The notes below the pieces were generated by a model. The model did not search any database, was not told where the DNA came from, and was given only the letters and a program-made list of their open reading frames with translations. A DNA stretch of 64,000 nt from Sphingomonas sp. JC676. Lineage in GTDB: Bacteria; Pseudomonadota; Alphaproteobacteria; Sphingomonadales; Sphingomonadaceae. Of this stretch, positions 54,506-55,015 are shown one piece after another; the first letter of the stretch is position 1, and each line of letters opens with the position of its first letter. The stretch is taken from NCBI RefSeq assembly GCF_014489075.1, contig NZ_JACTGR010000001.1, positions 1,426,001 through 1,490,000 on the forward strand, given 5' to 3'. A program made the translations under genes and the position numbers.

Positions 54506-54534
54506 GACGCAAACACGCCAGATCCCGAAACTCA

Positions 54535-54990
54535 CTCCCCTCCCTGGAAGGGAGGGGTTGGGGGTGGGTTGGCGAGCGAAGCGAAGCCATCCTACACTCG
54601 CCATATGCGCCGCCGCATCGATCCTGCGTTAACCGCCCGGGCGCGCGAGCTGCGCAACAATCCCACCGAGACCGAACTCGCGGTCTGGCACCTGATCTCA
54701 CGCTATCGCCCGTCCTTCACGCGCCAGTGCGTGGAGGCGCCCTTCATCATCGACCTCGCATGCAGGCAGGCAAAGCTGGCGATCGAGTTCGATGGCAGCC
54801 AACACATCGGAAATGCCGAAAGCGATGCCCGCCGCTCAACCTACCTTCGCTCCAAGGGCTGGCGAGTGATCCGGTTCTGGAATTCCGATGTGCTCGTAAA
54901 TCCAGAAGGTGTCGTCAGACATATTCTGGCGCAAGCCGCCGAGTGCCTCGGCGGCACCCACCCCCAACCCCTCCCTTCCAGGGAGGGGAG
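54535..54990 (+). mobile_element. candidate DUF559 mini-element bounded by perfect 35-bp inverted repeats
   Basis: The left end (54535-54569) and right end (54956-54990) are exact inverse copies over 35 bases, beginning CTCCCCTCCCTGG and running into GGGGTTGGGGGTGGGT. Each end is itself a hairpin (CCCCTCCCT, GGA loop, AGGGAGGGG). A single DUF559 nuclease gene fills the space between. No target-site duplication is visible outside the ends. The arrangement resembles REP-associated transposase genes flanked by REP units; DUF559 as the mobilising partner is my inference. Confidence 0.6.
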
Positions 54991-55015
54991 AGAAAGACGG
55001 CCGCGCTCGCGCTGA
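54605..55015 (+). CDS. DUF559 domain nuclease-fold protein
   Basis: A 136-residue protein of the DUF559/Vsr-like PD-(D/E)xK fold: ARELRNNPTETELAVWHLI at the start, then FIIDLACRQAKLAIEFDGSQH with the aspartate, glutamate and EFDGSQH motif of the active site, and LRSKGWRVIRFWNSDVLVNPEGV. Most likely a DNA endonuclease or its relative. The ATG is at 54605. The last ~20 residues (THPQPLPSREGRE...) are encoded by the right inverted repeat, so the repeat shapes the C terminus. Confidence 0.82.
   Translation: MRRRIDPALTARARELRNNPTETELAVWHLISRYRPSFTRQCVEAPFIIDLACRQAKLAIEFDGSQHIGNAESDARRSTYLRSKGWRVIRFWNSDVLVNPEGVVRHILAQAAECLGGTHPQPLPSREGRERRPRSR

Follow-up and report, generated by a model that had tools for sequence, protein, structure and literature searches.

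Among the palindromic repeats described in bacteria, those closest to the locus analysed here are the REPs and REPINs that go with RAYTs (TnpA-REP, 'REPtrons') and the intrastrand-triplex repeats known as BoxC, PIT or TM_ECO. RAYTs are Y1 HUH enzymes, and their REPs bear a GTAG tag (PMC3733652, excerpt). BoxC-kind triplex repeats have been described from E. coli and several further bacteria, and they have been linked to genome instability (PMC4666352, excerpt). According to the same excerpt (Holder et al. 2015), triplex formation has been seen in vitro but is unproven in cells, MG1655 has five inverted pairs, variability is raised at the repeat loci, and near the E. coli copies nothing was identified that would provide genetic mobility. 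For the CGTC REPs, which are palindromic as well, Di Nocera et al. (2013; PMC3733652, excerpt) stated that no transposase is dedicated to them. As for DUF559 proteins, the relation between YcjD and Vsr has been in print since 2005 (PMC1189080, excerpt), and the EDxHD assignment of a DUF559 gene has also been published (PMC9403480, excerpt). Caulobacter VsrA, a DUF559 protein, triggers the SOS response when a cytosine methyltransferase is missing and has been proposed as a mismatch-repair nuclease (PMC12907096, excerpt). By analogy, VsrA suggests that DUF559-type proteins may cut DNA in cells, and it also offers a rival function.

The locus studied here lies in a 64-kb stretch of the genome of Sphingomonas sp. 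JC676, the whole of which we call the window. A repeat search of the window found perfect 35-bp inverted repeats at 54535-54569 (forward strand) and 54956-54990 (reverse strand). With their outer bases included, the arms (54532-54569 and 54956-54993) are complementary at 37 of 38 bases and delimit the whole proposed element, 462 bp at 54532-54993 with no strand assigned. Each arm, of sequence CTCCCCTCCCTGGAAGGGAGGGGTTGGGGGTGGGT, contains a hairpin with a 9-bp stem and a 3-base loop (54537-54557 and 54968-54988) and a 12-base tail, directed to the gene, whose inward-reading strand is G-rich (54558-54569 in the left end). The right end, an exact reverse complement of the left, has its tail facing the gene and encodes the C terminus of the protein (...THPQPLPSREG...). 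The interior is filled by a forward-strand ORF at 54569-55015, 148 aa from TTG with a possible ATG at 54605, which matches the DUF559 profile PF04480 at E 1e-27; no transposase was seen inside the element. An earlier note, made from the sequence alone, had described exact inverse hairpin ends around a single DUF559 gene, a right end translated as the C terminus and the lack of a transposase, and the repeat search and profile match agree with it on each point. Recent movement or active maintenance, which it had taken the unbroken repeat identity to suggest, is a possible reading of this locus. Outside the element lie a class II aldolase gene (PF00596, 53744-54505, forward strand) and a gene for a LigB-type ring-opening dioxygenase (PF02900, 55192-56025, reverse strand). 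Among the three nearest neighbours scanned, namely these two and a [2Fe-2S] protein, there is no DNA methyltransferase.

The ends are built like BoxC/PIT/TM_ECO intrastrand-triplex repeats. In the window arm, read by eye, the tail as third strand is a mirror image of the stem's purine strand, the arrangement that confers triplex-forming potential. Over 132 other loci, mirror agreement between tail and purine strand, with A allowed to pair with either A or T, averages 0.76, against 0.49 with re-dealt tails (0/300), so that tail and stem covary between loci; 8 of 140 loci without a clean hairpin were left out of this test. Judging from the sequence, the G-rich tail could fold back as an intrastrand triplex. 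The window arm does not fit the strict E. coli consensus CCCTCNCCCN3-6GGGNGAGGGN3GGGNGAGGG (PMC4666352, excerpt), and an Rfam search gave one match, at E 0.89, far below the cut-off. The earlier note had thought that a DUF559-driven repeat system would be new. The end type itself is already known, BoxC-like repeats having been reported in E. coli and other bacteria (PMC4666352, excerpt).

The DUF559 protein, modelled from the ATG (pLDDT 90, 53 sequences), has a predicted fold whose nearest solved structures are 3hrl (Z 13.6), 3r3p (Z 12.3) and Vsr, 1cw0 (Z 10.1). The first, described as a putative endonuclease-like protein, is also a match of the DUF559 profile, at E 7e-38, and the second is the homing endonuclease I-Bth0305I, with a profile E of 0.0013. 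Residues E73, D75, H79 and D86 of the ORF, encoded within 54785-54826 on the forward strand, are invariant in one alignment of 19 sequences (A1) and, numbered E61, D63, H67 and D74 from the ATG, in another of 53 (A3). Together, the modelled fold and the E-x-D-G-x-x-H ... D residues place the protein among putative EDxHD/Vsr-like endonucleases. PADLOC defence models gave no full match to the window protein; the similarities seen were weak and local, each to a portion of a large protein (E 1.5e-5 and 2.4e-4).

How general the arrangement is was addressed by aligning the left flank of each gene locally with the reverse complement of its right flank, 350 bp each, and calling a locus bracketed if the best alignment scored at least 16. 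In the family Sphingomonadaceae, where DUF559 is present in 103 of 119 genomes, 84 of 91 complete loci are bracketed and none of 182 shifted windows. These loci derive from the four of our own genome, the top match in each of 30 genomes and 60 hand-picked from the listed matches in multi-copy genomes; L037, L038 and L049, cut by contig ends, stand outside the 91. Since no shifted window reaches the score of those 84 loci, chance is excluded as a general explanation. GTDB-wide, 55 of 77 loci are bracketed versus 1 of 283 controls, the loci being the best 80 among the matches listed for a query built on our own family, less 3 with short flanks. They are mostly alpha-, beta- and gammaproteobacterial, with a few others, e.g. 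Gastranaerophilales and Bipolaricaulota. For genomes drawn evenly from the phylum, the figure is 13 of 27 versus 1 of 54 controls (best matches of the sampled genomes; 30 given, 3 of them already in other sets). The phylum figure is the least biased, because the GTDB query was built on our own family and all three sets consist of best matches. Below the threshold are 7 of 91 family, 22 of 77 GTDB and 14 of 27 phylum loci. A second measure, a C/T-G/A hairpin of at least 7 pairs, is found on both sides of 128 of 169 loci, on one side of 32 and on neither side of 9 (2 of the 171-locus set had short flanks). ParE toxin genes, another small gene family, are bracketed in 0 of 30 cases, with a maximum score of 11. 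Among individually scored loci, those of Azospirillum (L282, 12), Neisseria (L283, 12) and Sinorhizobium (L285, 9) fall below the threshold, and that of S. parapaucimobilis (L284, 23) passes. We also observed that in the N. gonorrhoeae record (L283) BoxC-like repeats flank the DUF559 gene on both sides despite the score of 12, and that the inverted ends of one DUF559 gene, L337, are very long (score 98) and differ in sequence type.

The E. coli DUF559 gene, ycjD, with scores of 8 and 9, does not have brackets on both sides. TM_ECO no. 9 (1351204-1351239) lies 167 bases downstream of ycjD in MG1655 (1351407-1351760), and a partly degraded BoxC overlaps the ycjD stop. At least 80% of the sapF-ycjD-fabI stretch is present in 3333 of 5426 E. 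coli genomes. In three of the remaining genomes, examined at sapF, efflux genes come next, as also reported in a 2026 paper (PMC12817139, excerpt). As a separate observation, a piece of the ycjD 3' end is duplicated downstream, between the degraded BoxC and TM_ECO no. 9 (L378, MG1655 1351204-1351760), as if rearranged.

The genome of Sphingomonas sp. JC676 (4.87 Mb, 34 contigs) has four DUF559 matches in a profile search, and inverted palindromes bracket all four. The ends of L009 are similar to those of the window element, and L011 and L012 share a second type, GGGGACC...GGTGGAGGGG. The 22-bp core of the window ends, with up to 3 mismatches, occurs at 7 places in the genome, 2 of them the element's own ends, and the control at none; a looser palindrome pattern matches 51 times versus 9 for the control. 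By eye, several gene-less copies (L004, L007, L008) make up inverted doublets whose members are about 110-140 bp apart. The search for the end that the earlier note had called for found further copies, some of them paired without a gene, in numbers remote from the thousands of generic repeats that it had named as speaking against its idea. Beside L004, L007, L008 and L019 there is a second palindrome, around CGGGGC(T/A)CGA(T/G)(G/C)CCCCG, perhaps a terminator.

The number of palindromes follows the number of nuclease genes. Palindromes were counted as matches to CCTCNCCN{3,10}GGNGAGG, with the reversed form as control; since matches are counted, one palindrome with two possible loops may count twice. 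For 80 family genomes hand-picked from the 119, among them every one of the 16 that lack DUF559, the Spearman coefficient between DUF559 copies and palindromes is 0.65, compared to 0.20 for the control pattern, which thus also rises slightly. The 16 genomes without DUF559 have 3 to 25 palindromes, whereas the range is 36 to 437 in the 12 that carry five to ten copies. For 199 genomes of the phylum the coefficient is 0.66 (control 0.30), kinship being ignored in these statistics. The median is 56 palindromes in the 57 genomes with a strong DUF559 match and 3 in the 142 without, 18 genomes with weak matches only being classed as 'without'; the medians are unchanged outside our own family. At least 24 palindromes are found in 46 of the 57 and in 7 of the 142, and fewer than 10 in 7 of the 57. 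The earlier note had also named occurrence in distant genera as contrary evidence. The arrangement is indeed present there, yet it accompanies the nuclease in most genomes counted.

The kind of repeat follows the kind of nuclease as well. The arms were first inspected and then sorted by their tails into ten end classes, and 23 of 140 loci with no or a mixed class were left out. On a quick tree of the 140 DUF559 domains, the 117 classed loci require 38 changes of repeat class, compared to a mean of 77 after shuffling (0/300 as low). For the 73 classed family loci shuffled within genomes, there are 19 changes versus a mean of 39.5 and a minimum of 32 (0/300). A Mantel test gave 0/500 and its within-genome version 34/2000. 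More modestly, among 60 palindromes in 1.2 Mb of three genomes, the best-matching arm is that of a DUF559 locus of the same genome in 12 cases, where about 3.7 are expected. These correlations suggest that the repeat class is specific to the enzyme, as it is in REP/RAYT systems.

Several observations bear on mobility. Copies with different neighbours occur within the same genome: L245 and L247 (98% identical domains) together with L246 in G117, L241 and L242 in G067, and L197 and L198 in G027. When six related within-genome pairs were aligned, homology stopped 0-15 bases outside the palindromes in four (L245/L246, L241/L242, L197/L198, L190/L192); for L245/L247 it extends 28 and 13 bases further, and L200/L201 aligned over part of the unit. 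On the other hand, among the 103 protein pairs closest to each other (at least 62%), 55 have neighbours in common; therefore many copies have been inherited in place. Gene-less doublets are not confined to our own genome. In G049, 16 of the 49 adjacent pairs among 50 palindromes listed are 81-149 bp apart, where 0.5 would be expected within 200 bp. Ten aligned gene-less doublets of this genome, 92-121 bp long and in different places, have ends matching an arm of L209, the DUF559 locus of G049, at 22-41 of 45 positions; a 31-base stretch of the interior of one of them does not come from L209, the best match there being 10 bases. Of 18 close palindrome pairs in sections of G024, G086 and G027, 17 are inverted. 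It is worth adding that an evolution experiment with Legionella identified segments carrying a transposase and DUF559 as hot spots of recombination (PMC12308824, excerpt). Split or stop-bearing DUF559 matches (G390:C6, G291:C29, G354:C5, G307:C1 2233132-2233445, G414:C7) have the appearance of decayed copies, such as a selfish gene would be expected to leave.

Two orthologous sites were compared in 30 genomes each. Between dnaG and yqeY (30 genomes of our own genus, own included, the best of 121 searched), 10 genomes carry a DUF559 unit, and a script detected a GIY-YIG motif in 2. In the other 18 the script found none of DUF559, GIY-YIG motif and C/T-G/A hairpin, although inspection by eye shows GIY-YIG genes in two of these (L155, L158) and a single palindrome in one (L157). 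In six genomes dnaG and yqeY abut. Between the aldolase and LigB genes, DUF559 is present in 2 genomes, with ends of different classes, GIY-YIG in 1 and palindromes alone in 4, with a further doublet at L169 seen by eye. Sites lacking the gene, which the earlier note had suggested looking for at this very place, accordingly exist. By eye, the gene-less doublets there belong to another class than the window ends. Target-site duplications and exact empty-site junctions were not readable at either site, the junctions because no genome pair at the two sites exceeds 96% identity. By species, both intervals hold differing small genes or nothing. At dnaG-yqeY in L139 and L159, a further palindromic element with ends GTTTCAGG...CCTGAAAC sits within the hairpin of the DUF559-flanking repeat.

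The reading that we favour, and consider probable, is that the 462-bp unit is an autonomous nuclease-driven REP-like element in which an EDxHD nuclease takes the place of a RAYT. The DUF559 protein would recognise its own class of end, probably as extruded single strands, e.g. during replication, and would cut or nick there; repair or rejoining would then copy or move the bracketed unit, and gene-less doublets with the same ends might be copied or moved in trans. Such a scheme would parallel that of RAYTs with REPs and REPINs, with an unrelated nuclease. It is likely that DUF559 acts on its cognate ends, and both transposition-like movement and homing are possible. The earlier note had proposed a REP/RAYT-like layout with DUF559 instead of the transposase. 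That layout stands, with the brackets (84/91 and 55/77), gene-less doublets, copy-number link, co-diversification, within-genome copies and occupied and empty orthologous sites, whereas triplex folding, end recognition, cutting and the route of movement are what we infer.

Homing is the strongest rival, although we regard it as rather unlikely. Here the doublets would be older residents of the host, the nuclease would cut a gene-less doublet and its gene would be copied between the palindromes by recombination, the spread of the repeats not being owed to the gene. Apart from 3hrl, which is itself of DUF559 type, the nearest solved structure by both fold and sequence is indeed the homing endonuclease I-Bth0305I; GIY-YIG, the second bracketed family (see below), is also a homing family (PMC6083498, excerpt); and in the aldolase-LigB interval palindromes without a nuclease gene occur where other species have DUF559. 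However, those doublets are of another class than the window's as read by eye, and at dnaG-yqeY 18 of 30 genomes have no DUF559, GIY-YIG motif or hairpin by script (apart from the two GIY-YIG genes and one palindrome seen by eye). Moreover, nuclease and repeat class diversify together, and the number of repeats goes with that of nuclease copies, which speaks against homing. Still less probable is a cellular function of the nuclease in very-short-patch repair or restriction, ordinary terminators or mobile repeats having settled beside it. The Vsr-like fold (Z 10.1) and Caulobacter VsrA, tied to cytosine methylation and SOS (PMC12907096, excerpt), are in line with such a function, but there is no methyltransferase among the three scanned neighbours, neither shifted windows nor ParE genes have inverted palindromes at such spacing, and repeat class and nuclease co-diversify. 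Finally, the palindromes could be targets or scars, hairpin sites attracting varied small horizontally acquired genes, DUF559 included, which seems quite improbable: the dnaG-yqeY and aldolase-LigB intervals do hold DUF559, GIY-YIG or unrelated genes by species, but the GIY-YIG genes at both sites carry other, non-BoxC-like palindromes by eye, and none of 30 ParE toxin genes is bracketed.

Other candidates were rejected: composition or chance by the shifted windows and the reversed-pattern control, brackets as a property of small mobile genes in general by the ParE result (0/30), and phage or plasmid cargo by the scarcity of relatives: a search with L048 found them in 3 of the 50,697 phage records, and one with the window query in 32 of the 72,556 plasmid records, some of those 32 being chromosomes filed as plasmids. 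A RAYT as the engine was likewise discarded: the Y1 (HUH) transposase PF01797 was not found in our own genome, seven of ten Y1 loci scored 8-17 and had no BoxC-like ends, and the other three were cut. Among 20 palindrome-rich genomes, our own included, 10 have no PF01797 gene.

DUF559 is not the only nuclease family bracketed by palindromes. GIY-YIG (PF01541) matches, UvrC among them, are present in 119 of 119 family genomes, and 22 of 30 GIY-YIG loci (L250-L279) are bracketed by other inverted palindromes, versus 0 of 60 controls; so are L132, L133, L155, L158 and L163. Among the misses, L255, L257 and L263 have a stand-alone GIY-YIG domain, and therefore UvrC does not explain them; L259, L262 and L278 are further unbracketed loci. 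By eye, proteins with Y(I/V/T)GVT or YIGAT pair with CGTC-like palindromes (L256, L272, L273, L276, L279, of which L272 and L276 score below 16), and those with Y(T/V/I/A)GHT are mostly found with palindromes of the CCGTTCG... type. The left repeat of L270 fits the description of CGTC-1: an 8-bp stem starting with AT, a 4-base loop and a CCA tail (PMC3733652, excerpt). Tentatively, and with somewhat less assurance than for the window element itself, we propose that DUF559/EDxHD and GIY-YIG, unrelated families both also known as homing endonucleases, independently drive large groups of orphan repeats, the former BoxC/triplex repeats and the latter CGTC REPs and those of CCGTTCG type. REPs would then be convergent nuclease-driven parasites with at least three engines.

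In the open-access literature, which leaves subscription papers and bioRxiv largely outside, we found no paper linking DUF559 with palindromic repeats or GIY-YIG with 'extragenic palindromic' repeats, and open-access titles and abstracts on REPIN and RAYT, on ycjD or boxC, and on intrastrand triplex and nuclease hold no such link. In a 2025 survey of REPs (PMC12306157) the terms RAYT, nuclease and transposase are all absent. Our results suggest that the DUF559 family is the missing engine spreading a common unexplained bacterial repeat. Matched nucleases and ends offer a direct test both for BoxC, near whose E. coli copies no mobility gene was reported (PMC4666352, excerpt), and for CGTC REPs, for which no transposase of their own was claimed (PMC3733652, excerpt). 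The test is feasible in E. coli K-12, among others, with ycjD and its BoxC repeats, and a nuclease with matched ends would assign a function to the many genes whose annotation goes no further than 'DUF559 domain-containing'.

The window element shares features with several known systems. With I-Bth0305I and Vsr it has the fold and the catalytic-type residues in common, but the gene differs from those of EDxHD homing endonucleases and Vsr in having no intron or interrupted gene, palindromes at its flanks and no methyltransferase among the scanned neighbours. Its ends share with BoxC/PIT/TM_ECO a C-rich stem, a loop, a G-rich stem, a short linker and a second, mirroring G-rich strand, and in both cases inverted pairs occur; for BoxC/TM_ECO, however, no associated nuclease is named in the excerpt of PMC4666352, where nuclease, endonuclease and DUF have 0 occurrences. 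The CGTC REPs, found here around GIY-YIG genes (L270, L163), differ from the window element in both sequence and nuclease. REP/REPIN and RAYT offer a further parallel: there as here, inverted palindromes flank a nuclease gene, gene-less inverted doublets occur, the elements are mostly chromosomal and the repeat class is matched to the enzyme. Nonetheless, the GTAG tag is absent from the foot of the window palindromes, read directly in both arms, and a DUF559 protein (PD-(D/E)XK superfamily, EDxHD) replaces the Y1 enzyme. Because enzyme and tag differ, the window system is not a member of the REP/RAYT group but its counterpart with another nuclease.
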